Virus record (IMG/VR): IMGVR_UViG_3300043772_002424
Location: 1 to 21,898 of that record
Strand: one strand, 5' to 3'
Source of the DNA: a virus
DNA length: 21,898 nucleotides
Program-made: the position numbers and the translations under genes
Part shown: piece by piece, positions 6,801 to 21,578 of the stretch
How the letters are laid out: every line of letters starts with the position of its first letter
Position numbering within the stretch: position 1 is the stretch's first letter
Notes under the pieces: model-generated
The model's input: only the letters and a program-made list of their open reading frames with translations
Told to the model about the DNA's origin: nothing
Databases searched by the model: none

Positions 6801-7784
6801 GTTGTTCTCGCAGTGAGCAGCAGCAGCAGCACCCACAAGAGCACGACCGGCAGCGTCAAACTGAGCGTAAGCAGTCGGTGTCACCAGGTAACCCTGGTCT
6901 TGCTGACCATCAAACGCAGTGTTGATGCACTGGGTGTAGTCCTGGGGAACGCGCTCCAGGTAGGTCTGACCGCCAACAATGTTGTTCACGTCGTAGGCGT
7001 TCTGCATGAACACGAAGTTGCTTCCAACTGGGAGCACTTCGGTCACCACGGACACGTTGCCATCGAAAGTTGTCGCGGCAATGGTCACATAGCTGTTCTC
7101 AGAGTTGCCTGAAGGGTCCAGATCGTTCACCATCCCGGTGTCACGAACGTAAACCGAGCTATTCACAGCAGGGTTTGACTCAATGGCGGCTGAAACAGCA
7201 GCTGCGATGGCGGCTGAAATCTTGCGGTTGTTGGCTTCATCGCCAGCAACATAGTTGACAGGGACGGTCACGGGGACGCCCAGCCATTCTCCATCGGCAG
7301 TGTAACCGGTGGAACCGTCGCCGGAAACCAGTTTGAGGCCGTTGATGATCATCTGCACGAACACCTTGTCACCTGCCATCAGGGCAGAGGGAAGGTCTGT
7401 GGTGTTGATCTTGGAGGCGGAAGGGAGGAACTCAATCTCAACGATTTGGTTGGGAGTGCCGACGCGAACAACGCGAAGGTCGCCAACCTGAGCATTCTGG
7501 AAGAACTCGTTGACGCAGTTGTAGCTGAGCAGGGGGATCCGGGTATCGGGAACAGTTGAAGTTCCGATGCGAATCAGTTCCTTGTAGTCGTTGAGAGACG
7601 TGACGGGAACGGGGACATTGAAAGGAAACTGAGTTACGGGGACGCCTTCCTCTGTCTCCACAAGCATGTACACGGTGCTGAAGTCAGCGAGGGCTGCATT
7701 AGCAGCACGACCGGCTTGCTCATTGATATAAACTCCGGGTGCTCCAGGGGTTACTCCTGAAGTCCCGAGGGAAAAAGTTGCCAT
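3804..7784 (-). CDS. Tail sheath protein, very large
   Basis: This 1326-aa contractile tail sheath subunit is about two to three times the usual 400-700 aa. ATG 7784 starts 'MATFSLGTSGVTPGAPGVY', the classic sheath N-terminus with PGVY and a following acidic residue; the frame remains open to TTG 7814 but lacks an upstream ATG. The C-terminal ~250 residues carry the conserved fold: 'GCNAVRTLPGYPQSAVFIWG', 'GRTRVNPDD', 'YQFVNTRVILNVV', and a terminal 'VTPVPTLERIQIDLIRV'. The middle is Gly/Ser/Val/Thr-rich and contains an inserted GxGY-type repeat segment (residues ~830-950, nt ~5000-5300) resembling the protein at 12962-13909. The extra domains probably decorate the outside of the sheath. A strong AGGAGG at 7803-7808 lies 18 nt from the ATG, longer than usual. 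A GGGTAAAAC motif lies 92 nt upstream. Confidence 0.96.
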   Translation of the reverse strand: MATFSLGTSGVTPGAPGVYINEQAGRAANAALADFSTVYMLVETEEGVPVTQFPFNVPVPVTSLNDYKELIRIGTSTVPDTRIPLLSYNCVNEFFQNAQVGDLRVVRVGTPNQIVEIEFLPSASKINTTDLPSALMAGDKVFVQMIINGLKLVSGDGSTGYTADGEWLGVPVTVPVNYVAGDEANNRKISAAIAAAVSAAIESNPAVNSSVYVRDTGMVNDLDPSGNSENSYVTIAATTFDGNVSVVTEVLPVGSNFVFMQNAYDVNNIVGGQTYLERVPQDYTQCINTAFDGQQDQGYLVTPTAYAQFDAAGRALVGAAAAAHCENNNFKWLALADPGPFLVTDVNKYQDYVPHKAASCLLEGLKYLVDNAIYEWVGSDVCYNRLSNQTLLPGVSAEVAVNESANLVSDASQVGLLDAGQYTVTAVATGVDGVFELDSDQYWPVSLPIQKVAVGSVAVGSDFANVDVVGGSTGISLAGTEVYVVAAPYDLSASSEYSLNYIMLATTAADASNLYNQVVLLGGSKNVLTPLVGSVVVPSPTGDTALLSYVDPYWDLPVDINGQTSDLIENVSGSGAGVNTLHLPGTLQDATNQYLLNWYSRTLLSPAAQISNYGGTVVPAGSAQFTVQSHGLRSGMVIYFTQAITVNNSGSVTSLVSATTKLVSRPYWVKAIDANNFALASSLGNYTTSAFLSFPTAGTVSSVPSIFYSRMLGRGLTQISPNELITLPMIRGRKYEFDSNSIWNQALSAAVAPTSVATTDAFTSIWLNNSALTLGQSLITPYGEDISSGTKCGWLPKLNTVIPDPSPAAAVLNAYCTPTVDQFFQPEAYFTPSIDPILLGTYNGVVGSGTVGPATTLVAVGAASSKPAGTYNNVVVSGGSGSGLTATLTVDGTGAVTAAVVNNAGQGYLATDTGLTLPSSFGGNTLNVSGIDNASTGSFAVASGSAYQVALAAAGVAPVGSSGAQLVAEQQYLVGCYFNVTASGVGPGGLAVVAGDRIALVYNGTAYTWAVVAAASAGGDLTTVGQVCYGAQVELTFSPEQVVPSSLWRFDAITSTEIIDRALRGVGFNGVPQAVFIEAGVDNVNRLFDDSQRYFNPFGFIAFYGPWIENGAGQYIPPSLYVTGVALRRYRAEGYQFPPAGVKYQLADAVAAQIPINSAQQNLLNPKGCNAVRTLPGYPQSAVFIWGGRTRVNPDDAQQRLYQFVNTRVILNVVYGSLRSAFDTQIFNVIDGFGIVYNQIISVGNSILNQLYVRGALFGATPSDAFQVICDSRINPPESLENGIVNAKVFVTPVPTLERIQIDLIRVAIGKMQDELDIQGLGNGSV

Positions 7785-7876
7785 GTTATCACAGGTGTGT
7801 GCCCTCCTTTTCAACCTTGCTACCGGTGAGGGAAGTCGCCGTTTAGTCTCCGCAGAGGCAAAGTCTACTTACAGAA

Positions 7877-7887
7877 GGGTTTTACCC
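7877..7887 (-). promoter_or_regulatory. GGGTAAAAC motif copy 3 (before tail sheath)
   Basis: The minus strand reads GGGTAAAACCC. The TAA of the motif is also the stop codon of the LysM-like gene. The motif lies 92 nt before the sheath ATG, the longest gap in the set, leaving an unusually long candidate leader with an AGGAGG near its end. Confidence 0.55.
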
Positions 7888-8262
7888 GTTCTGGTCACCT
7901 GTTATTGCAGCGAAACTGTCAAAAGTCAAACCATTTATGCTCTCTCTGTCCACAACTCCCTGAAGTGTGTAGCGGTTCAGGGCAGCAGTGTACTCTTCTT
8001 CTGTGTCAAACGGGTAAATATCTTGCTCCGGCACGCCGTTTGGCAAACCAAAGATGAAGGACCCCTGTGTCAAACCTCCAGGGGTTCCTCCGCTGTTCTC
8101 GGACGGCGAGATTTGGAGTTGCGCCCCAATCGGAGGCAACTCCGTAACCTTCCATTGCGCGTTCTGACTCAAGACTTCCCTGTAGTTCAGGGAGTCGGTA
8201 AAGTAGAGGTAACCCAACTTTCGCCAGGTATGTTCTTGCTGAAATGGAAGGGAAACAGTCAT
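7882..8262 (-). CDS. LysM-like tail protein (P2 gpX-type), probable
   Basis: This 126-aa protein contains 'WRKLGYLYFTDSLNYREVL', followed by 'SQNAQWKVTELPPIGAQLQI'. This is the LysM pattern: W..L, an alpha helix, an N..W segment, then a Pro-Gly turn and a final strand, as in short tail proteins such as P2 gpX. In phage tails these domains often join tube, baseplate hub or cell-wall contacts. The C-terminal half is acidic and aromatic with no recognised domain. The start codon overlaps the preceding stop (TAATG at 8262), and the sheath gene follows. The LysM call rests on pattern recognition only; a generic baseplate protein is the alternative. Confidence 0.6.
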   Translation of the reverse strand: MTVSLPFQQEHTWRKLGYLYFTDSLNYREVLSQNAQWKVTELPPIGAQLQISPSENSGGTPGGLTQGSFIFGLPNGVPEQDIYPFDTEEEYTAALNRYTLQGVVDRESINGLTFDSFAAITGDQNG

Positions 8263-9746: not shown

Positions 9747-9975
9747 TGTTTTTCTGTGAGAGGTTAGTTAGTTTTACCCGCAAGGCAAATAGGCGGTTCT
9801 CGAGTTCCATGTCCCCGCAACCCGGAGGTAAGGACAGGTAGATGGCATTCGCTTCCCTCCAACTGAACTCCGCGTCTTGCAACCAGTCGTCTGTTAGGCG
9901 ATCTTCAACGTCATCTAACCAGAAACCGACGCAGATTTTGCGAAAGTCGGGGTCCTCAGGAAGCGGAAATGCCAT
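9730..9975 (-). CDS. Unknown 81-aa protein
   Basis: The acidic N-terminal half is rich in Asp and Trp ('GFWLDDVEDRLTDDWLQDAEF'-like segment), followed by a helical region 'ENRLFALRVKLTNLSQK'. No signal peptide, membrane segment or known motif is visible. The ATG overlaps the stop of the 62-aa gene (TAATG), and its own last 17 nt overlap the chaperone start. A GGGTAAAAC motif (9771-9779) is embedded near its 3' end. It is the junction between polymerase operon and tail genes. Function not recognised. Confidence 0.7.
   Translation of the reverse strand: MAFPLPEDPDFRKICVGFWLDDVEDRLTDDWLQDAEFSWREANAIYLSLPPGCGDMELENRLFALRVKLTNLSQKNNEDNL
9771..9779 (-). promoter_or_regulatory. GGGTAAAAC motif copy 4 (before tail chaperone, inside 81-aa gene)
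   Basis: Perfect minus-strand GGGTAAAAC, 24 nt before the chaperone ATG. It lies inside coding sequence, where it encodes R-V-K-L, so it would be an internal start site letting tail genes be expressed apart from the polymerase. Confidence 0.6.
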
Positions 9976-10163
9976 TAGAGTGCTCGAAGCATGTTAACGG
10001 TTTGTTGAACTGAGAAGTAACGCGAGTTGTAAGCGCACTCCACCGAGGAGGGGATCACTCGGTTCTTCTTGTCGTAGGGTACGGTCATGTAGAAAGTGTC
10101 AATGACACCTTGAAACAGAACCACCCCGACATTCTCGACTCGTGACTTTTTGTTTTTGTTCAT
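9975..10163 (-). CDS. Unknown 62-aa basic protein downstream of polymerase
   Basis: The small product begins 'MNKNKKSRVENVGVVLF' and has a mixed beta-like core with several Tyr and Val residues. There is no recognised domain. Its ATG overlaps the polymerase stop codon (TGATG), so it is translationally coupled to the polymerase and probably made in a fixed ratio to it. A replication accessory role is possible from position only. Its stop overlaps the next gene's start (TAATG). Confidence 0.65.
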   Translation of the reverse strand: MNKNKKSRVENVGVVLFQGVIDTFYMTVPYDKKNRVIPSSVECAYNSRYFSVQQTVNMLRAL

Positions 10164-12928
10164 CAGATGACTCCTTTTTTGATGGCGGAATAGCGGTTTG
10201 TTAGTTTGTCGATGGCACCGATCTCGGCAAGTTCGTACATTGAGTACTCAGTGCCAAACGGTTCCTTCTCGCCACCAGGGTTAGACAAGGTGACCGTCTT
10301 TTCCTTGGGTGATTTGCGAAGGCGATCGTCAATCGCAACCGAGGAGAAGTACGCACGGGACAGAGGAAGTTCCGGGATGTCAACAGCAGAGTGGAACAGC
10401 GACCAGGTGTACATGTGAGCAATCTGGAACAGAACAGCAAACTGCTCTGCGTATCGCTCGGGTGTCATGAACCAGATCTCGTCGTGAATGCTGAGCACGA
10501 ACCTTGAGGGAATCTTGTATTCCTCTGCCAACCAGTGCACAGCAGTGAGCATGATTGACAGAATCTCAGCACCGGAGGACTGAATCGTCCAGTTAACTCG
10601 CCCAGTCTTAAAGTCGTCACCGACAGCAGCAGGACGCATCGCGGTCGAGATCTTGGTCCCAAGGCAAGGCAACTGAGGTACTCGTGACTTCATCGCAATC
10701 TCTTCCATGAAGTTGAAGCACCCGGAGTCAAGACCTGCTTCGTACAGACCGTTTTTCTGGGCGCCCTTCTTCTTCTGGATGAGCATGAAGGCAAGTTTCT
10801 TCGCCTCTTCAGGCGTCTTCTCGGGGTACTTGCGACGAATGTAGTTCTGAACGCCACGGACGCCAGCACCGTAAAGGATGGCGAAACCCACAATCTTGGC
10901 AGTGTCACGGTCCACGCCACAGACCTTTGCAAGGGCACTATGCGGGTCTGTGCCTGCCTCCTTGGACCCGCTGAGCACGTTGTACCCGAAGGGTGAGCAC
11001 CCGACGTGCCCGCCCTCCCACTTGTCGCTGTAGATAGACGCGATTTGCATCTCCTGACCGTCGAAGTCAGCGCCGACGATCTTCCAACCGTCAGGTGCCT
11101 GCACTCGTGACTTGAGTTCAGTGCCGATGCGCCAACTCTTTGTGGAGCACATGGTAACCATGAGCGACTCCACGGTGCGACGGGTAACCGTGCCGTGGCA
11201 GAGAATCTCAGGGAGAGTTACGAGGGAGTCAATACCGTGAGGGTTTGCAACCGGAAGGAAAATGCGGTCCATGACTCGCTTACGGACCGAAGTCCAGTAC
11301 GAGACTGCGTTTGCAATCTCAAGAGCACGTTTCGCCTCGGGCAGTTCGCTATTCAGGCGACCCACTTTCATATCGTCCACGAAGTCCTTGCTGAGGACTC
11401 CGCCGACGTTGTCGCCTGTCCCTTTCGGGTGAGGAATCCGTGTAAGGACTCCCTCCTCGTTGTGGAAGCACCACCCCATGTCTTTGGTGCAAGTCATCGG
11501 GGAACCTTCCCAGGTGAGTTTTAGCAACAGGTGAGACAGGTTGGACTTCACACCGATATGTGTCTCAGGGTCTTTGATGAAGGGGCGCACCCAGTTCGGA
11601 ATGCCAGCGTACTTCCCTTTCTCAGTCGCGACAGTCCAGTCCAGTTGAGTTAACCAGGGGTCCCTCTTCCAGTACGAATCGCTCTTCTCAGTCTTCAACC
11701 ACTCGTCGTAGTAAGTCCAAACCAAGTCCTGACAGAGTTTGGTCATTTCTTTGTTGTGACTCTCAAACGTTTTCTCGACGTTTTGAATCCACTCCTCCCA
11801 GTCAGGCACCAAGGGAATGACCGACCCGTTGAGGTGGTAGTGCCCACAGAGTGCCACGAGCGAGGGGGTGGAGTCTAGGTACTTGGGCCAGAGAGCCTGG
11901 AAGAGTTCTGCAGTGTAGAAGGCGTCCTTGACAGCGTAGTCAACTGCCTCGGTCAGCATCTGACGGATCTGACTCAGGTGCGTTGCCTTGACGAAAATGT
12001 CACGAACTGCCTTGTCTTCCTTGCCGAGCTGGAAGGCGTCATCGCCGAAGAACTTGCGCACCTCGTAGACGTGGAAGTTGTACGCAGCAACCAGCGAGTT
12101 GGTGGACCCTTCGTCCAACCACTTCGGTGCATACCTCAGTTTCCGCTTCTCGTCTTCCGTGAGGTTCTCTGGGTCCTTACCTGCCAGAACGTAAAGCCAA
12201 CGTTGACCGCCAGCAAGACCACTGACGCCGATATGAGCAGATAGGGTGTCAAAGTAGAAGTTCTCCGGTTTGGTGCGGTCAAGAGAGTACCCCTCACGAG
12301 CACGCACACGGTCGTAGGAGATGTTGTGACCAACAACGAAACGGTTCTCACCGATTGGAATCAAGTTGTGTTGGTCCCACTGATCCTCAGGAATCGTTGG
12401 ATCAATCAGTTCCGACGCCAACCAGACGTAGGATGCCTTGGCACTCATTGCAGTACCGATGATTGGAAAGGCGCCCGCGTGAACGAAGGTCTCGGTGTCG
12501 TAGGTGAACGCTTTCTCCAAAGGGTAAGGAACGGACTCAGTCTTCCACTTCCCTCGGGACTTTGTGTACCGGGTCCACCCAGGTTTGAACACGAGGACTT
12601 CTGCCGGAGGCACCTCAGGGAGTTTGCAAGTCGAGAACTCGTCAGCAAGTTCCTTGTACTCGCCGACTTGCGCCCGTGCAATCTCTTCAAAGTGAGTCTT
12701 CAGAGTCTCACCCTTGAGTTCGGGGAGAGGCAGCGGACCGTCGTAGAGGTGGTCGGGGTAATCAACGGGAGTCGGGATGTCAAACTCAGACAGCAGGTCC
12801 TCTGCTTTCTGCTTCGCCAGACGACGCATCTCTGGCGGTTTCTGCTTACCAAAAATCCTCGAGTGAGTTTCTTCACTGAGGACCGGATATCCGAGTGGCG
12901 TTTTGCGCATGGACGTTGTGTTTTTCAT
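10163..12928 (-). CDS. Family A DNA polymerase, full-length mitochondrial pol-gamma homologue
   Basis: This 921-aa replicative polymerase with proofreading is colinear with animal POLG, not Pol I or T7 types. The exonuclease is near residues 138-345: Exo I D144/E146 ('TYDTETF'), Exo II D206 ('VVGHNISYDR'), Exo III Y331/D335. The polymerase domain has motif A D621/E626 ('GADFDGQEMQIAS'), motif B R674, K678, F682, Y686 ('RDTAKIVGFAILYGAG'), and motif C D816/E817 ('LSIHDEIWF'). POLG-specific matches include 'PGWTRY', 'CSPFGYNVL', 'RVNWTIQSS', 'DIPELPLSRAYFSSVAIDDRLRK' (first 20 residues decisive) and the SNP near the end. It is shorter than human POLG (1239 aa) because the spacer insertions and mitochondrial leader are missing. 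A TTTACT-15-TATACT promoter lies so close that transcripts from ATG 12928 would be leaderless; ATG 12910 is an alternative start. It heads an operon with two small coupled genes. Confidence 0.97.
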   Translation of the reverse strand: MKNTTSMRKTPLGYPVLSEETHSRIFGKQKPPEMRRLAKQKAEDLLSEFDIPTPVDYPDHLYDGPLPLPELKGETLKTHFEEIARAQVGEYKELADEFSTCKLPEVPPAEVLVFKPGWTRYTKSRGKWKTESVPYPLEKAFTYDTETFVHAGAFPIIGTAMSAKASYVWLASELIDPTIPEDQWDQHNLIPIGENRFVVGHNISYDRVRAREGYSLDRTKPENFYFDTLSAHIGVSGLAGGQRWLYVLAGKDPENLTEDEKRKLRYAPKWLDEGSTNSLVAAYNFHVYEVRKFFGDDAFQLGKEDKAVRDIFVKATHLSQIRQMLTEAVDYAVKDAFYTAELFQALWPKYLDSTPSLVALCGHYHLNGSVIPLVPDWEEWIQNVEKTFESHNKEMTKLCQDLVWTYYDEWLKTEKSDSYWKRDPWLTQLDWTVATEKGKYAGIPNWVRPFIKDPETHIGVKSNLSHLLLKLTWEGSPMTCTKDMGWCFHNEEGVLTRIPHPKGTGDNVGGVLSKDFVDDMKVGRLNSELPEAKRALEIANAVSYWTSVRKRVMDRIFLPVANPHGIDSLVTLPEILCHGTVTRRTVESLMVTMCSTKSWRIGTELKSRVQAPDGWKIVGADFDGQEMQIASIYSDKWEGGHVGCSPFGYNVLSGSKEAGTDPHSALAKVCGVDRDTAKIVGFAILYGAGVRGVQNYIRRKYPEKTPEEAKKLAFMLIQKKKGAQKNGLYEAGLDSGCFNFMEEIAMKSRVPQLPCLGTKISTAMRPAAVGDDFKTGRVNWTIQSSGAEILSIMLTAVHWLAEEYKIPSRFVLSIHDEIWFMTPERYAEQFAVLFQIAHMYTWSLFHSAVDIPELPLSRAYFSSVAIDDRLRKSPKEKTVTLSNPGGEKEPFGTEYSMYELAEIGAIDKLTNRYSAIKKGVI

Positions 12929-12934
12929 GTAAGT

Positions 12935-12961
12935 AGTATAGGGGCGGCTGTTTCTAGTAAA
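12935..12961 (-). promoter_or_regulatory. Candidate promoter of polymerase gene (TTTACT-N15-TATACT)
   Basis: The minus strand carries TTTACT (12956-12961), a 15-bp spacer and TATACT (12935-12940). Only 6 nt separate the hexamer from ATG 12928, so transcription would begin at about the start codon. The architecture recurs before three other genes. Confidence 0.55.
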
Positions 12962-13909
12962 TCACATGGCGACAGCGGACCCACCACCACCACCACTGGT
13001 AGGGGGAGCTTGAAGGTAGCCAATGGGGGGTGCTTTCAGATTGTTGCCTGCCGGGTAGATAAAGGAGTAAGCGATTGCCTGCTGGTTGGCGTTAGGGGGG
13101 TCAAAGGCACTCACCTGAGTTTGAGAGAAGCGACGGGGGGACTGGGCCCAGCGAGGCTCAGCACCGGTGCCTGAGTCTGGGATTACGGTGGCGACAGGGG
13201 CGTAGAAACCGCTGCCTGAGGGGAGTCCGGGGGCCTCCAGAGAGTCTCCAGGAGTGTAGCCGGTTCCAGGGTTCACCAAGGTGAAACTTGTCACGGTTCC
13301 GCCGGTGCCAACAGCGTCAACTTGGCCGACGCCTGTTCCAGGGGTGACTGTGAAGGTGTCGCCCACTCGGTAACCGGTTCCACCAGTTGTTACAGAGGTC
13401 ACTTGTACCAGGAAGCCATTGTTGCTTCTGCCTTGAACCTTCAGTCCGGAGCCTGACCCGGTCAGAGTCACTGTCGTCCTGCCGGCGAAGTTCACGTTAT
13501 TGGAGGAATACCCGGTGCCAGCAGACACGAAAGACACGGCACTTGCTGGGCCCTCGTCGACGCCGACGGGAAGAGTTACCACAATGTCCGCTGTTGCGCC
13601 TGTGCCGGTGCCACCGCTGAGAGCCTCGCCCAGGTAAGTGCCGGGGTCGTAGCCGGAACCGGGAGAAAGCCAGCCGAAGGTGGAAATGCTGCCGGTTTCC
13701 TGGGTGTAGGAATTAACCCGGTACTCAAACGTTACCGGGTCGCCAGGGTTTACCCCGTATCCATTGGGTTGTAAGTTAGTATAATACTCCATGGAGTTGT
13801 TTTGCCATGACCTGTAAGTCGGTGCCAGCACATTCCCGTATTTTGTCAGGTCCGAAGGGCTTAGGAACGACTTTACAAGTTTTGACATTTGGACGGCACG
13901 AGGATTCAT
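12962..13909 (-). CDS. Glycine-rich probable virion protein with GxGY repeats
   Basis: The 315-aa reading starts at ATG 13909, which has AAGGAAG about 5 nt upstream; a GTG at 13924 is upstream in frame. After a helical N-terminal 60 residues the protein becomes Gly/Thr/Val-rich. It has at least four GxGY units ('PGSGYDPGTY', 'AGTGYSSNNV', 'GGTGYRVGDT', 'PGTGYTPGDS'), each followed by short beta strands. Such repeats form beta-rich decoration or fibre domains in phage virions; the same signature is inserted in the tail sheath here. The C-terminus ends in a poly-Gly run after a Pro-rich segment. A GGGTAAAAC motif 24 nt before the start groups it with virion genes. The exact role (head decoration, tail or fibre) cannot be settled. 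Confidence 0.7.
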   Translation of the reverse strand: MNPRAVQMSKLVKSFLSPSDLTKYGNVLAPTYRSWQNNSMEYYTNLQPNGYGVNPGDPVTFEYRVNSYTQETGSISTFGWLSPGSGYDPGTYLGEALSGGTGTGATADIVVTLPVGVDEGPASAVSFVSAGTGYSSNNVNFAGRTTVTLTGSGSGLKVQGRSNNGFLVQVTSVTTGGTGYRVGDTFTVTPGTGVGQVDAVGTGGTVTSFTLVNPGTGYTPGDSLEAPGLPSGSGFYAPVATVIPDSGTGAEPRWAQSPRRFSQTQVSAFDPPNANQQAIAYSFIYPAGNNLKAPPIGYLQAPPTSGGGGGSAVAM

Positions 13910-13933
13910 GCTCACTTCCTTCACACGTAAACT

Positions 13934-13943
13934 GGTTTTACCC
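13934..13943 (-). promoter_or_regulatory. GGGTAAAAC motif copy 5 (before GxGY-repeat protein)
   Basis: Minus-strand GGGTAAAACC between the stop of the 113-aa gene and ATG 13909, 24 nt from the start codon. The spacing is identical to the copy before the tail chaperone. Confidence 0.6.
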
Positions 13944-13945
13944 CT

Positions 13946-14287
13946 CTAGAACTCTAAATCCCAGCAAAGACGGCCCGGCTCCGGGTCGTAAAGTCCGAGG
14001 TTGCGGGCATCGTTGATGGCATCCAGGAGTGCCTTATCATTGTTGAGACGGCGGTGTAAACGTAGTCTCCACAGGCAGTAGGCGCGAGCATTCTTCTCGT
14101 CGGGTTTTTCTTGGTACTTTTGGTAGTATCTCTCAACGGTTTGCACGATGCCGATGCCAACCTTGGCAATGAGGTGGTCCTCATTCGTCAAAGCGCGTAC
14201 CGGTTTGACCTCCTCCCATTGCCCTCGCAGGAGAGGGTCGGCAAGCATCGCCTCTCGAGTTGCTTTGTCTCCGAAGTTTTTCTTCAT
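13946..14287 (-). CDS. Unknown 113-aa basic helical protein
   Basis: The product begins 'MKKNFGDKATREAMLADPLL' and is mostly helical, with 'CLWRLRLHRRLNNDKALLDA' in the C-terminal half. It has no cysteine pairs, membrane segment or catalytic signature that I recognise. It starts 5 nt after the stop of the 264-aa gene, making it the last gene of the three-gene operon starting at 15647. A GGGTAAAAC motif follows its stop, so the next gene is likely transcribed separately. Function unknown. Confidence 0.75.
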   Translation of the reverse strand: MKKNFGDKATREAMLADPLLRGQWEEVKPVRALTNEDHLIAKVGIGIVQTVERYYQKYQEKPDEKNARAYCLWRLRLHRRLNNDKALLDAINDARNLGLYDPEPGRLCWDLEF

Positions 14288-14292
14288 GTCAA

Positions 14293-15087
14293 TCAGAAAG
14301 AGAAGTGCTTGAGTTCAAACTCACGAAGTCCCGTCGTTCCGTAGATCTCGTCCTTGTGCCTGCGGTAGATCTCGTAAGCATCAAAGATTTTTGGAAAGTT
14401 CAGTGGGCGATCACCTGGAGATTCACGCCATAGAAGGATCTCAGGGAGAGACATCGGGACGTCAATGTCCCACTGCTCGTCCCGTGCCCCGTACAGCATC
14501 GGGAGTGCGTCGTTGCGCCACCAGTCAACAATGTACGCAATTGCCTTCTCCCAAGTCTCAGGATCGGTCAGGTGGGTGTCAAACTCTGAGCGAATCCAAG
14601 AAATGTGCTCTAGACCTCGCCTAATCACGACGGAGGTTGCTGTGGGGACGTGCTCGAGGTAGTATGCTTCCTCAGAACCATCTACGACTCGCTCATAGAC
14701 GGCAGGGAAGAGGAATGCCTCTGAAGCAAGGCGGAAGTCGTCGTTGCCTTGGCACATCAAGCGAAGGATAGAGTCCAGGATGGCAACGGTGGCGGCAACA
14801 CGAAGATCAGACTCGCTGACTGCGTCAGGTTTCGCCTTCCCGGAGGACTCTTGACGAAGAAGTTCTAGTTCTCGCTCGAGTCTCCGGACCTCGCGCCCCA
14901 TCTCCCGTTCGATGCGAGTCTTGTAGATCTCTGACTGCGAGATCACGTTCTCGACACGAGTCTCAATCTTTGAGAGTTCGCTCTCGAAGGACTCGAACTC
15001 GCCGCGAAGACTTGAGAGTTTCTTCCTCAGGGAAGTGACGCAAGTTTTGACTTTGTTGGTTGAGTGGAGTATGTTGTCGGATGCCAT
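14293..15087 (-). CDS. Unknown 264-aa protein with N-terminal coiled coil
   Basis: Residues ~10-85 form a long charged heptad-like coiled coil ('LRKKLSSLRGEFESFESELS', 'RRLERELELLRQ'). A globular, Trp- and acid-rich C-terminal domain follows, with segments such as 'ISWIRSEFDTHLTD' and 'MSLPEILLWRESPGDRPLNF'. No enzymatic motif is recognised. The start lies 2 nt after the stop of the 184-aa gene, so the two are probably coupled. It could be a structural or a DNA-associated protein; no evidence here decides. Confidence 0.8.
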   Translation of the reverse strand: MASDNILHSTNKVKTCVTSLRKKLSSLRGEFESFESELSKIETRVENVISQSEIYKTRIEREMGREVRRLERELELLRQESSGKAKPDAVSESDLRVAATVAILDSILRLMCQGNDDFRLASEAFLFPAVYERVVDGSEEAYYLEHVPTATSVVIRRGLEHISWIRSEFDTHLTDPETWEKAIAYIVDWWRNDALPMLYGARDEQWDIDVPMSLPEILLWRESPGDRPLNFPKIFDAYEIYRRHKDEIYGTTGLREFELKHFSF

Positions 15088-15089
15088 TC

Positions 15090-15647
15090 TCAGATTGGTT
15101 TGTAGGTGGCGCGAAGGATGTCTGCCTGGACGTCCAGGATGTCAACGTGGAAGGCGTATTGGCTGTCGGGGTCACTCAGAAGGTGGAAGGCACCTTCGAA
15201 GCGCTCGCCATCAATGGACCGAAGGTACGAGTTGCCAGGGGTTGGCGGTGAGCAGAGCGCAATGTTTCCGTCAAAGTCAGGGTTTGCTTCCACCAGCGAC
15301 TTGACGATTCGGTCATAGATTGCGCTGGCGGCTGCCATTTCGTGGTCGTTGGTGATCTGTGCCTTGATTTCGCCCTCGACTGGTTTGAGTACCGACGCGA
15401 GTCCGGAGTTGAGAGTCATTTGCAACTCTCCCGTGGAGTCGTCGATGCAGAAGCAAACCTCGTCGGCACCCATGCCAAACTCACACTCCTCGGGGTCTTC
15501 GTAGTCGGAGAGTCCGTACTCCATCAACTCATAGAAGGATTGTTTAAGCGTTTCACCGTCAGGGCCGTCAAAGAGGTTGGCAATCGCAAAGAAGATTCTA
15601 GGGTTTGCTAGGAGGCGGTCGACGGGGTAGAAGATCTCGTTAGTCAC
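15090..15647 (-). CDS. Unknown acidic protein, first gene of a three-gene operon
   Basis: The start is GTG 15647, chosen because GGAG lies 8 nt upstream; another GTG at 15656 is in frame but has no spaced ribosome site. The ~185-aa product is acidic, with a Cys-containing stretch 'ADEVCFCIDDSTGEL' and 'LKPVEGEIKAQITNDHEMAAA'-type segments (quoted in part). No domain is recognised. It lies downstream of both a TTTACC-N15-TATACT promoter and a GGGTAAAAC motif, the only gene here with both, so it may be expressed early and late. Confidence 0.75.
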   Translation of the reverse strand: MTNEIFYPVDRLLANPRIFFAIANLFDGPDGETLKQSFYELMEYGLSDYEDPEECEFGMGADEVCFCIDDSTGELQMTLNSGLASVLKPVEGEIKAQITNDHEMAAASAIYDRIVKSLVEANPDFDGNIALCSPPTPGNSYLRSIDGERFEGAFHLLSDPDSQYAFHVDILDVQADILRATYKPI

Positions 15648-15668
15648 AGGTATCACTCCAGCGATTGC

Positions 15669-15722: not shown

Positions 15723-17663
15723 TCACAGTTTGACCTCCGTTACTGCAGCGACTTTGGCACCGTGCCCTCCGGGTTTGCCGGGTTTGGCAGAGACCGGGAA
15801 GAGTTCAACTTTCTTTTTGCGAGTTGAGACCCAGGGGACGGTGTAAGCACCCTCCCCGAAGTGAATGAGCGTGGCACCTTCTGGTACGAGTTTCTTTCCT
15901 TTCGACGTTACCTTGCACAGGTCTTCGCCCGAGACCGCCATTGCCTTGAGTTGGTCGCCAAGTGTAAAGACCACGAGGTATTTGCGTGTGGCAACCTCAG
16001 TTTCTTTCTTTGCGAGGAGGACCTCAGAGTAAGAGTCCCCGAGAGCACCTTTGAATGAAGAAGGAACTTTCTTCAGTGTCCCGTCTGCGAGAACTGCAAT
16101 GAGTTTGTCATTCTTTTCAAGGATGAGTGCGCCGCGAGGTCCCTTTGCTTGAGTAACGAGTCCTTTCTTGGTGTCGACCAGAAGGAAGCGGGGTTTTGCA
16201 ACGGTCGCCGCCACCCGCGAGGATCCCTTCTCCACTGTCAGACTTTCTGGCGGATCAATCAGTGCTGAGCGGCGTTTCTCACCGTATCTCACGCCGATTG
16301 CTTTGATTTCTTTGGTCATGTATGCTTTGCGCACCTTGCCGTCTTTGATCAAAGTGCTCAACTCAGCAATGCGCTCTTTCAGAGTGCCCTCCTCAGTTGC
16401 CAACTCTTCGGAGTCCAGATTGGTCAGAGCACGGAGTTTCATCTCAAGGATTGCTTGCGCTTGCGCCTTGCTAAACTTGAGTGCTCGGTTTGAGACAAGT
16501 TCAATCAGTGCTTCCTTTGGTGAAGCAGCAGCGCGAATGATTTTTATGACCAGATCAATCTTGTCAATTGCCTTGAGGTAACCTCGCACAATCTCTAGGC
16601 GGGACTCAGCCGCATTCAACTCGTGGGCAAACTGCACACCCAACCGATCCATCCGCCATGCCTGCCAACGCGCAAGAAGTTCACTTGGCGAGAGTTCAAC
16701 AGGTCGAGTCCCGTCCACAACCAGCAACCGCGCCGAATACTTAGAGTCCAGGTCGGAGTAATGGTAGAGTTGCCGAGTGAGAAGGTTGACGTTGGCCCCA
16801 GACTTGAGAGTAACCGTGAGACGGTCTCCCGTGAGATCAGAGTCGTCACGGACATTGCTGATTCCATCAATGTTTCCTTTGTCAAGTGCGTCTTTGATTT
16901 GTTGCCCGATCTTCTCAGGGTTTGTTCCTTGCGGCAGATTTGTGAATACGATTTCAGTTCTTGCCTTCCGCCCTGTCCCAGTTTCAGAAGTCTCGCACTT
17001 GGCACGGAGTCGCAGAGTGCCTGCCCCGGTCTTCACATAGTTCTCAAGACCCTCGTCCTGGATAATGTCGCAACCAGTAGGGAAGGAAGGAGTGAGTGGG
17101 GTGCCTTTGGTGATTGCTTCGCAGATGTCCCTGAGAGAATGCGGTGGAATCTTCGTTGCGAATCCTACGCCGATCCCGTCCTGCCCGTTGATTAGGACTG
17201 CGGGCACTTTGACGTTGAGTTCGACAGGTTCTTGGAGAGAACCGTCATAATTGTCGCGAGTTGTCCACGTTTCGGAGTGATCTAGGAGACAATCCCACGC
17301 AAATGGTGTGAGTTTCGCCTCAGTGTATCGGGAGGCAGCGGCACCATCTACGGAGGACCCCCAGTTGCCTTGGCCGTCAATGAATGGGAGGTTATTGTTC
17401 CAGGGCGCTGCCAAGGTGACCATCACGCCGTAGGCACCGCCATGCGGGTGCAACTTGCCCATTGTCTCCCCCTCGACGCGGGCCGACTTCATGTACTTCC
17501 CGTCAGGGCGCATCCCCATCCACTTCATTGCCGTCAGGACTCGGCGTTGCGCGGGTTTGAGACCATCTGTGAGGGATGGGATGGCGCGGCCAATGAGCAC
17601 TGCCATGCTGTACGCAAGGTAATCCTCCTTGACCTGGGTCGTCAGGTTGGTGGTTGTGTCCAT
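15723..17663 (-). CDS. Type IIA topoisomerase subunit A (GyrA/ParC-like)
   Basis: This 646-aa subunit cuts and rejoins DNA for replication and supercoil relief. The N-terminal breakage-reunion domain is clear: 'YLAYSMAVLIGRAIPSLTDG', 'LKPAQRRVL', 'GKLHPHGGAYG', then 'GAAASRYTEAKL' with catalytic Y113 preceded by the conserved Arg. 'LINGQDGIGVGFATKIPPHS' follows. A long coiled-coil region is around 340-470. The C-terminal ~160 residues look like a shortened beta-pinwheel with a degenerate GyrA-box-like 'TQAKGPRGALIL'. GyrA is ~875 aa and ParC ~750 aa, so the C-terminal wrap domain is cut down and wrapping may be weak. No GyrB/ParE ATPase subunit is present in this window; it must be elsewhere in the phage or supplied by the host. 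A promoter and terminator precede it. Confidence 0.95.
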   Translation of the reverse strand: MDTTTNLTTQVKEDYLAYSMAVLIGRAIPSLTDGLKPAQRRVLTAMKWMGMRPDGKYMKSARVEGETMGKLHPHGGAYGVMVTLAAPWNNNLPFIDGQGNWGSSVDGAAASRYTEAKLTPFAWDCLLDHSETWTTRDNYDGSLQEPVELNVKVPAVLINGQDGIGVGFATKIPPHSLRDICEAITKGTPLTPSFPTGCDIIQDEGLENYVKTGAGTLRLRAKCETSETGTGRKARTEIVFTNLPQGTNPEKIGQQIKDALDKGNIDGISNVRDDSDLTGDRLTVTLKSGANVNLLTRQLYHYSDLDSKYSARLLVVDGTRPVELSPSELLARWQAWRMDRLGVQFAHELNAAESRLEIVRGYLKAIDKIDLVIKIIRAAASPKEALIELVSNRALKFSKAQAQAILEMKLRALTNLDSEELATEEGTLKERIAELSTLIKDGKVRKAYMTKEIKAIGVRYGEKRRSALIDPPESLTVEKGSSRVAATVAKPRFLLVDTKKGLVTQAKGPRGALILEKNDKLIAVLADGTLKKVPSSFKGALGDSYSEVLLAKKETEVATRKYLVVFTLGDQLKAMAVSGEDLCKVTSKGKKLVPEGATLIHFGEGAYTVPWVSTRKKKVELFPVSAKPGKPGGHGAKVAAVTEVKL

Positions 17664-19578: not shown

Positions 19579-20086
19579 GACTAAGCAGCGAAAACCCTTG
19601 CTCAACACAGGTCACAGGATAGTTCTCCCTGAGTTTTCTCATTCGTGTTGCCATTCCTTTTCGCCAAGCAGGGTTCTGGTTGCTTCTGTCGGCGTTTCTC
19701 TGGTTGAGCAGCTCGGAGTCTGCGTTCAGGGAGTAAATGGTAACATCGTTGCAGACGGACCCAGGTTGAAAGAAAAAGTCGAAAAACTTGCTGTTTGAGA
19801 ATCTCTCTCCTTCGAAGTAAAAGACCCAGTCCTTGAAAGTAACGTCAGCGCATTTCCGTGCCAACCACTCGCGGTACTGCGGACCGCACCCTTTCGAAGT
19901 ACGATCTGTTCCCGAAAACACTGCCTCGTCGTAGATTCCGGCAATGTACACCTTGTCCTGAGGAAAGACGGTGTAACAAACCAGACTCTCCTTCTGCACC
20001 CTCCCCTCGCCAAGAGTCTCGATAAGACCCCGCATCACCGTACTCTTTCCAGAGGCAGGTTCACCAATCAACCCAATAATCTTCAT
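19571..20086 (-). CDS. P-loop nucleotide/base kinase
   Basis: This 171-aa protein starts with Walker A 'GEPASGKST' (residues 8-16). 'YIAGIYDE' and 'GTDRTSKG' follow mid-protein, then 'VFYFEGERFSN', giving the layout of small phage deoxynucleotide-type P-loop kinases with a lid rich in Arg near 'NQNPAWRKGMATRMRKLREN'. The substrate cannot be read directly. Either a dNMP is phosphorylated for replication, or a modified base in DNA, as the 5-hydroxymethyluracil DNA kinases of hypermodifying phages do. The ATG overlaps the dioxygenase stop by ATGA, so the two are translated together, which favours the base-modification reading. Length is close to that of short phage kinases. Confidence 0.8.
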   Translation of the reverse strand: MKIIGLIGEPASGKSTVMRGLIETLGEGRVQKESLVCYTVFPQDKVYIAGIYDEAVFSGTDRTSKGCGPQYREWLARKCADVTFKDWVFYFEGERFSNSKFFDFFFQPGSVCNDVTIYSLNADSELLNQRNADRSNQNPAWRKGMATRMRKLRENYPVTCVEQGFSLLSHV

Positions 20087-21519
20087 GACTTTGCTCCAGC
20101 AGTTTCTGCCTCAAGTAACATAAGAATTTCCTCGTCTGGTAAATGCCCTGTGCAGTAGTAGTTCGTGTTGGAGCAACGCTCCATTCCCCGCGACTGCTTG
20201 TAAAGAACCCACTCGGGCGACTGCCACATCCCGCTCCAGGAACCAGTCCATTTCGGTTCGCCAGTTCCCTTGTGCTGATTGTGAATGACATTGTGATCCA
20301 TGAAGTCCTTCCGACATTGCTCACAGTCCAGGTCGTCGAGTCGGGTCACAGAATCTCTTTGGTACGCAACAAACATAATGTTCTCAGCGTCCGGGGTCTG
20401 CTCACTGAAAGGAAGCATCCCATGGATCAAAGATTGATTGTCGCCAACGAACACGTCCCCGGCACGAATGTCGAAACCGATTCCAAGTTCAGGGAACACA
20501 AACTCGCCACCCTTCCAGTCACCAATCTCCATGACACACAACGCAGCAGTGCCACCCTCTGCGTTATTGCCATCGCGATGGTACGCAACGTCAAAGTTGT
20601 TATTCACGGTCAGTGTCGTGAACACGGTGCCAAACAAGTTGTATCTCTCGTCCTTCACCTCAGAGAACCTCGCGTTCAGAAACTCAAACTTCTCAGGGAG
20701 CAACTCCTTGAACATTCCGCTGAGTTCCCGGTAGAAATCCTTGTGGGCAACCCAATCCTCCCAGCGCTTGACAGTCGAAGCAGTCAGCCGACCAAAGGGC
20801 AACCGACCCGAGCGGTCAATCGTTCCCATCACATTGCTGTAACACATGTTGCTGCGAGGTTGAATCGTAACGTACTTCTTCTTCCCTGCCTTTGCCACAG
20901 CAGGGCGCTCCGATTCAGGTGCCGATAACCAGGACTCTTCGAACCACTTCATGAACCACGCAAGTTTCGCCTTGTTACGATTGGCAGTCGCCTCCGCTTT
21001 CTCCTCCGCAGAAACATTCCTCTTTCGGCAGATACTGTCCCAACGCTCCACCTCCTCCAGATCTACCAGCCCGTCTGTTTCCGCTTTCTTCACATAGTAC
21101 GTGTTTCGACTTGGTTTCTCATTTGAGCGAATAACTGCGAGCGCCTCCGAGGCATCTACCAGCGGGTTCTTTGCGCGTGTCGCCAGAGAGAAGAACTCCC
21201 ATTGCCCGATAGTCAGGCGAATCTCAGGGTTCGTAACGATGTCCTTCCCTGCTGCATACCCCCGCTGGTCGGTCTTGAGCGCCTTGCTCACCCAGCGCCA
21301 GTACGCCAGCGCCTCGGGCGTCAGGGTCCCCCCTTGCTCCACAGGCAAGGTACTCTTGAGGGCACCCACCCGAAACGCGATCGCCTTCTCACCGCTCGGG
21401 AGAAAGACATCCACGTCCTCGTGGTAGATTACATCAATGTCCCCGGCCTTGGGCCAGGAACCTAACCAGTCTTTGTCAGGGCACTCTCTCAGTGCCTTCA
21501 GGTGGATTTGTTTGACCAT
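20083..21519 (-). CDS. TET/JBP-family 2-oxoglutarate/Fe(II) dioxygenase with C-terminal Cys-rich module
   Basis: The 478-aa reading starts at ATG 21519, because a GGGTAAAAC motif overlaps the possible upstream start at 21555. The catalytic domain covers residues ~290-385: 'FGTVFTTLTVNNNFDVAYH', iron ligands H314 and D316 ('HRDGNN'), 'WKGGEFVFPELGIGFDIR', 'AGDVFV' and distal H366 ('LIHGMLPF'). This matches phage TET/JBP enzymes that hydroxylate 5-methylcytosine or thymine in DNA. The usual 2OG-binding Arg after the distal His ('RxS') aligns with N380 ('NIMFVAYQR'), a notable difference. A compact CxxC...HxxxH segment (C399, C402) and a second Cys pair (C449, C456) with 'SPEWVLYKQSRGMERC' lie C-terminal and may bind zinc and DNA. 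The ~220-residue N-terminal region is charged and unrecognised. It is followed by the overlapping kinase gene. Confidence 0.82.
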   Translation of the reverse strand: MVKQIHLKALRECPDKDWLGSWPKAGDIDVIYHEDVDVFLPSGEKAIAFRVGALKSTLPVEQGGTLTPEALAYWRWVSKALKTDQRGYAAGKDIVTNPEIRLTIGQWEFFSLATRAKNPLVDASEALAVIRSNEKPSRNTYYVKKAETDGLVDLEEVERWDSICRKRNVSAEEKAEATANRNKAKLAWFMKWFEESWLSAPESERPAVAKAGKKKYVTIQPRSNMCYSNVMGTIDRSGRLPFGRLTASTVKRWEDWVAHKDFYRELSGMFKELLPEKFEFLNARFSEVKDERYNLFGTVFTTLTVNNNFDVAYHRDGNNAEGGTAALCVMEIGDWKGGEFVFPELGIGFDIRAGDVFVGDNQSLIHGMLPFSEQTPDAENIMFVAYQRDSVTRLDDLDCEQCRKDFMDHNVIHNQHKGTGEPKWTGSWSGMWQSPEWVLYKQSRGMERCSNTNYYCTGHLPDEEILMLLEAETAGAKS

Positions 21520-21541
21520 GGGTCCCCATGCTACTCGGTGA

Positions 21542-21550
21542 GTTTTACCC
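21542..21550 (-). promoter_or_regulatory. GGGTAAAAC motif copy 7 (before dioxygenase)
   Basis: Perfect minus-strand GGGTAAAAC, 22 nt before ATG 21519. It abuts a TATGCT hexamer (21551-21556), which itself sits 16 bp after TTGACG (21573-21578), so here the motif lies just downstream of a sigma70-like promoter and could be an operator. Confidence 0.6.
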
Positions 21551-21578
21551 AGCATAGCAAAGAGACCCTGGGCGTCAA
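21551..21578 (-). promoter_or_regulatory. Candidate sigma70-like promoter of dioxygenase operon
   Basis: The minus strand carries TTGACG (21573-21578), a 16-bp spacer and TATGCT (21551-21556), close to the bacterial consensus. It would start transcription near 21544, within the GGGTAAAAC motif. Confidence 0.45.

Follow-up and report, generated by a model that had tools for sequence, protein, structure and literature searches.

The question raised by this locus is whether a gene on an uncultured viral contig encodes a full-length homologue of the mitochondrial DNA polymerase gamma, to which phages it belongs, and what it can tell about the origin of mitochondrial POLG. The window is the whole stretch of DNA that was analysed, the 21,898 nucleotides of the IMG/VR record IMGVR_UViG_3300043772_002424.

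The polymerase gene, its active site and its proposed role

The gene was found at 10163-12928, as the earlier note had stated. That note was silent on the strand, which is minus; the plus-strand frame over the same stretch is interrupted by stops. The encoded protein (P0001) was matched by the DNA polymerase profile PHROG 22619 at 2.6e-227. The POLG landmarks that had been read from the sequence, the N-terminal PLG, GWTRY, the three Exo motifs, DNVGG..SKDF and FSSVAIDDRLRK, were all present and colinear. P0001 would begin with an N-terminal domain, followed by a 3'-5' exonuclease that carries Exo I-III; a short spacer would then lead to the polymerase domain, which has the motifs A, B and C (Table 1).

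Table 1. Positions of the polymerase, its domains and motifs, and the neighbouring genes in the window.
Feature	Position	Strand	Evidence and remarks
Pol gamma-like DNA polymerase P0001, 921 aa	10163..12928	minus (12928 down to 10163)	ATG start
Mitochondrial-type 3'-5' exonuclease domain PF18136, residues 67-350	11879..12730	minus	1.5e-61; about 210 bits (211)
Exo I, residues 140-152 (D144, E146)	12473..12511	minus	alignment
Exo II, residues 196-212 (D206)	12293..12343	minus	alignment
Exo III, residues 327-342 (Y331, D335)	11903..11950	minus	alignment
Family A polymerase domain match PF00476, residues 603-834	10427..11122	minus	7e-13
Motif A, residues 617-632 (D621, E626)	11033..11080	minus	alignment
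Motif B, residues 672-692 (R674, K678, F682, Y686)	10853..10915	minus	alignment; F682 at the position of human POLG Y951
Motif C, residues 808-822 (H815, D816, E817)	10463..10507	minus	alignment
62-aa ORF directly downstream of the polymerase, syntenic with S-CBWM1 gp78	9975..10163	minus	40%, 1e-9
ORFs of 320 and 113 aa, located between polymerase and gp76 counterpart	12962-14287	minus	not at that place in S-CBWM1
ORF syntenic with S-CBWM1 gp76	14293..15087	minus	27%, 2e-24
ORF syntenic with S-CBWM1 gp75	15090..15656	minus	30%, 8e-19
Type IIA topoisomerase subunit A	15723..17663	minus	PF00521, 9e-101; 47% to S-CBWM1; upstream, same gene block as in S-CBWM1
Tet/JBP 2-oxoglutarate oxygenase domain	20083-21555	minus	PF12851, 1e-16

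All 12 active-site residues were present in P0001 (D144, E146, D206, D335, D621, E626, R674, K678, Y686, H815, D816 and E817). They were invariant in 75/75 distinct full-length relatives closest to P0001; these 75 are the sequences assigned to its type, out of 108 distinct ones from 161 full-length loci. With the residue roles that we take over from the alignment to POLG, P0001 would synthesise DNA from primers on the phage genome, with D621 and D816 serving two-metal catalysis, E626 would act as a steric gate against ribonucleotides, and mistakes would be edited via D144, E146, D206 and D335.

P0001 is very probably the replicative, proofreading Pol gamma-family DNA polymerase of an S-CBWM1-type tailed phage. 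A service in repair or recombination in place of phage replication is improbable: the remaining replisome components lie outside the window, which would suit such a service, but no second PF00476 match was found in the 21.9 kb record, and P0001 has the full proofreading architecture and shows no sign of decay, its active site being kept in the 75 relatives. Since the record is a fragment, another replicative polymerase may lie elsewhere in the genome. A search for the helicase domain DnaB_C (PF03796) gave no match in 12/12 related records, with positive controls; T7 was not among these controls, so a Twinkle-like helicase may still be encoded. The search for a single-subunit RNA polymerase (PF00940) gave no match, and its controls were equally silent.

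At the position of the human tyrosine Y951, phenylalanine was found in 75/75 distinct P0001-type sequences and tyrosine in 33/33 distinct S-TIM5-type sequences. In human POLG the exchange Y951F kept the activity and raised the dCTP/ddCTP discrimination 2,400-fold (excerpt of PMC5702650). With F682 in place of this tyrosine, P0001 is predicted to discriminate strongly against dideoxynucleotides, unlike mitochondrial POLG, and hence to resist them. The Mic1 paper noted that the motif B tyrosine is conserved in Mic1 and S-TIM5 and missing in S-CBWM1 and A-HIS (PMC7156551, excerpt). The sensitivity to dideoxynucleotides, the basis of the mitochondrial toxicity of some antivirals, is predicted to differ among the phage lineages at one residue. 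The S-TIM5 type also showed an unusual change beside a catalytic aspartate, as its motif C reads HDS, not HDE, in 33/33 distinct sequences (the full-length ones of the loci L148-L191).

Membership in the Pol gamma family and the gene neighbourhood

That the gene product is homologous to mitochondrial DNA polymerase gamma over its full length was confirmed by profile, PDB matches, predicted fold and catalytic residues. The score of P0001 with PF18136 compares with a cut-off of 26.7 bits, and this profile had no match in the T7 record nor in 14 control genomes. When P0001 was searched against the PDB with phmmer, 14/14 distinct sequences matched at E<=1e-3 were Pol gamma, the best being yeast Mip1 at 7.2e-118, with human POLG at about 1e-111. 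A profile made from five phage polymerases gave 577-665 bits for the 14 Pol gamma sequences and 51 bits for the best other sequence, a Pol I, among the best 60 of 65 matches. The phmmer alignments paired the residues 6-440 and 497-895 with human POLG 34-465 and 717-1180, and the residues 65-884 with yeast Mip1 71-933. The colinearity claimed beyond the shared family A motifs was therefore borne out, far above chance.

The missing POLG spacer had also been described correctly. P0001 has about 56 residues where about 251 lie between the human positions 465 and 717, and the long insert that marks the animal POLG subfamily is absent. In animal POLG this insert is the binding region for the accessory subunit POLG2; the spacer of P0001 would be without it. 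Yeast Mip1 likewise has no long spacer, so its absence is no phage peculiarity. The likeness to animal POLG stands as true homology and not as a special closeness, since P0001 is 33.7% identical to human POLG and 33.3% to yeast Mip1.

An AlphaFold model of P0001, for which 17 aligned phage sequences were the input, reached a pLDDT of 85.8 and a pTM of 0.86, with values below 50 at the residues 239-250 and 261-274. In Foldseek the ranks 1-36 were all Pol gamma (TMq 0.71-0.84), followed by the Klenow fragment at 0.38. VIA-align superposed the model on human Pol gamma with Z 39.6 over 848 residues at 3.0 A and on yeast Pol gamma with Z 29.4; the first other family was the Pol I of phage G20c at 18.9. 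The human alignment paired the model residues 6-916 with POLG 68-1236, and the colinearity thus extends over the whole length.

We consider it extremely unlikely that P0001 is a common family A polymerase of the Pol I or T7 type, with no more than the general family motifs in common with POLG. PF00476 is present and Pol I profiles give weak matches of 22-28 bits, where the cut-offs are 600 or more, but PF18136 matches at 1.5e-61, and P0001 is 16-22% identical to the T7 and E. coli Pol I enzymes, compared with 33-34% for POLG of yeast and human. The earlier note had proposed a tree to decide this, and in it the Pol I and T7 types lay beyond a 100/100 branch. Trees and profile scores alike refute the Pol I or T7-type identity. 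Taken together, PF18136, the colinearity, the catalytic residues and the tree position show that P0001 is a member of the Pol gamma family.

Profile searches showed that the window also encodes a portal and a head protease, and an ORF of 1,336 residues matched the S-TIM5 tail sheath with 35% over 275 residues. The Tet/JBP oxygenase may be a sign that the phage DNA contains modified bases. When the window polymerase was used as a query, 77 loci were found; a family profile recognised 183 relatives among 270 pattern matches, of which 80 were kept. In the IMG/VR contig stretch L022, 18/22 compared window ORFs were matched in order. Family membership alone would also fit a eukaryotic POLG, host-derived or contaminant, on a contig that was misassembled or had received the gene by recent transfer, as non-phage members are known from animal and fungal mitochondria, but there is hardly any chance of this: portal, head protease and topoisomerase genes flank P0001 on the same strand, the isolate S-CBWM1 has the same local gene order, the independent contig L022 has an 82% identical polymerase in the same neighbourhood and there are 77 related loci, and these repeated independent phage contexts refute contamination.

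Phage polymerases and the origin of mitochondrial POLG

Maximum-likelihood trees were built under the LG+C20 mixture with a careful search. The sample consisted of 17 representatives with less than 75% identity, taken from the 161 full-length sequences (108 distinct) with partial genes excluded, and the eukaryotes were represented by yeast and human only. L200, which is S-CBWM1 itself, was dropped from the 17 in the first whole-protein tree and six more representatives in the second. A third tree was built after removal of the outgroups and the divergent L203. For the trees with a T7-type or a Pol I outgroup four more representatives and L203 were removed, and for those of the exonuclease and polymerase halves five more and L203.

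In all of these trees, P0001 was a member of the S-CBWM1-type clade. The support of this clade was 98/100 with L078 and 99/98 without it (second whole-protein tree). The phage Pol gamma enzymes form at least four groups, the S-CBWM1, S-TIM5, A-HIS and Mic1 types, besides the single L203, whose place is unsure. Pol gamma was not close to the T7 polymerase in these trees.

Yeast and human POLG paired with the Mic1-type phages in all five whole-protein trees, with 98/100 in the first, 96/94 in the second, 100/99 without outgroup and L203, 94/89 with the T7-type outgroup and 99/99 with the Pol I outgroup. Trees of either half, exonuclease or polymerase, gave 99/98. Forcing the eukaryotes together with the clade of P0001 was rejected (p 2.5e-8, tree without outgroup), as was forcing them with S-TIM5 (p 4.5e-5) or A-HIS (p 3.8e-4). 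The uninterrupted Mic1-like polymerase L212 has 42.0% identity with both the yeast and the human enzyme; these two are 44.6% identical to each other, whereas P0001 is 33.7% identical to human. Mitochondrial POLG thus pairs specifically with the Mic1 type, and the similarity between them nearly reaches that between yeast and human. Mitochondria and Mic1 types also have two arginines in common, one placed two residues beyond the motif B tyrosine and one two residues beyond the HDE of motif C; the other aligned sequences do not have them. Mic1 itself is an isolate, and a terminase match marks the L213 contig (90.6 kb) as phage.

We slightly favour the reading that the opisthokont mitochondrial Pol gamma descends from within the cyanophage polymerases, with the freshwater Mic1 type as its sister and the S-CBWM1 and S-TIM5 types branching earlier. 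A single clade of all phage polymerases, with the eukaryotes outside, was 3.9 to 6.0 log units worse and was not rejected in 4/4 tests (p 0.29, 0.057, 0.106 and 0.118); in these trees the amino-acid make-up of human POLG is unusual and the outgroup branches are long. Given the root position and the two eukaryotic sequences, a reverse transfer from eukaryote to phage may also account for the pairing.

In the excerpted texts, Pol gamma in A-HIS1/2, S-TIM5, S-CBWM1 and Mic1 has already been published and a common ancestor with mitochondrial Pol gamma was proposed from an unrooted neighbour-joining tree (PMC7156551). As the earlier note stated, the mitochondrial-like polymerase of S-TIM5 has been used to argue for a phage origin; it is cited as support together with an Acaryochloris phage (PMC4928673, excerpt). 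Animals and fungi are described as having a T3/T7 phage-like Pol gamma and other eukaryotes a Pol I-like enzyme (PMC7050145, excerpt). Among literature titles and abstract openings, none was found to name the Mic1-type phages as the specific sister group of mitochondrial POLG. If a descent from the Mic1 side is true, it would sharpen the phage origin of POLG to a defined transfer out of a single phage lineage and would fit the Pol gamma distribution stated in the excerpt of PMC7050145. The pairing narrows where to seek the source of the mitochondrial replicase. P0001 had been offered as a further data point for this origin; it is a homologue, but a weak data point, since the Mic1 type comprises the phages nearest to mitochondrial POLG. 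P0001 adds one uncultured member to a published family, and its clade is a contrast to the pairing of POLG with Mic1.

Several of the polymerase genes are interrupted. In the Mic1 type the interruption lies in motif A directly after GADVDS, in L213, L214, L215 (insert after 5372), L209/L219 and L081 (Mic1); the genes of L211 and L212 are uninterrupted. The inserts of L213 and L209 contain an HNH_3+NUMOD4 homing endonuclease ORF, and a near-identical ORF was seen in L215. Rfam gave no match at gathering scores in the five loci with interrupted polymerase genes, and at a relaxed E-value one sub-threshold group I intron match (L213:6016-6234, 35 bits with a cut-off of 50, E 3e-5). In relatives of the S-CBWM1 type, two further sites carry inserts, near the window residues 490 and 668-674: L060 at 12031-12950, L069 at 7235-7951, with an encoded HNH match, and L077/L078 at two places. 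The frame changes in L069 and L077/L078 make introns likelier than inteins there.

The TRRAVE DNA pattern found two stretches, the real relative L203 and the unrelated L204. L203 (2252-4903 of a 49 kb viral contig) encodes a very divergent Pol gamma, about 31-32% identical to P0001, yeast and human, with NFNTLFDANK in the Exo II region and LMLFFGG in motif B, which is without the YGxG tyrosine. Relatives of A-HIS were 0/51 pattern matches in the viral contigs, judged by the A-HIS alignment. In the genome contigs one relative was found in 185 matches of two patterns, the partial S-CBWM1-like polymerase L147 (58%) on the MAG contig CALGUV010000157.1. The MAG is labelled Microbacteriaceae, and L147 is probably a phage contig binned by mistake.

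Comparison with known polymerases

The PF18136 scores were 271 bits for the Mic1 types, 211 for the window, 197 for S-CBWM1, 196 for A-HIS1, 186 for S-TIM5 and 110 for L203, with none for T7. The mitochondrial enzymes human POLG and yeast Mip1 have exonuclease and polymerase domains colinear with P0001 at 33-34% identity. P0001 differs from human POLG by F for Y951 and by the absent spacer insert; the yeast Mip1 chain has 1240 residues and its match stops at 933, leaving a C-terminal extension that has no counterpart in P0001. The polymerases of the Microcystis phage Mic1 and the Mic1-like contigs L211-L215 belong to the same family and are about 34% identical to P0001. Unlike P0001, they group with mitochondrial POLG and have Y..R in motif B as in mitochondria; P0001 shows neither this grouping nor the Y..R.

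The earlier note had tied the window to the lineage of the cyanophage S-TIM5 (Aurunvirus, NC_019516), which did not hold. The S-TIM5 polymerase is a full-length member of the same family, 37.7% identical to P0001, but it lies in a separate clade, outside the S-CBWM1-type clade of P0001, and has Y at the position of F682, HDS for HDE and a different gene order. Besides the polymerase, only the head protease and the sheath were found in common between the compared stretch of S-TIM5 and the window.

The nearest isolate is the Synechococcus phage S-CBWM1 (Aokuangvirus, NC_048106), whose polymerase is 57.7% identical over 99% of P0001 and has a longer segment before motif B. From S-CBWM1, the host of the window phage is probably a Synechococcus-like cyanobacterium. 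Both share the order topoisomerase, gp75, gp76, polymerase, gp78 and neck genes; the window has, unlike S-CBWM1, two extra ORFs between the counterparts of gp76 and the polymerase. By its polymerase clade and the shared gene order, the window belongs to the S-CBWM1 lineage of the Aokuangvirus type.
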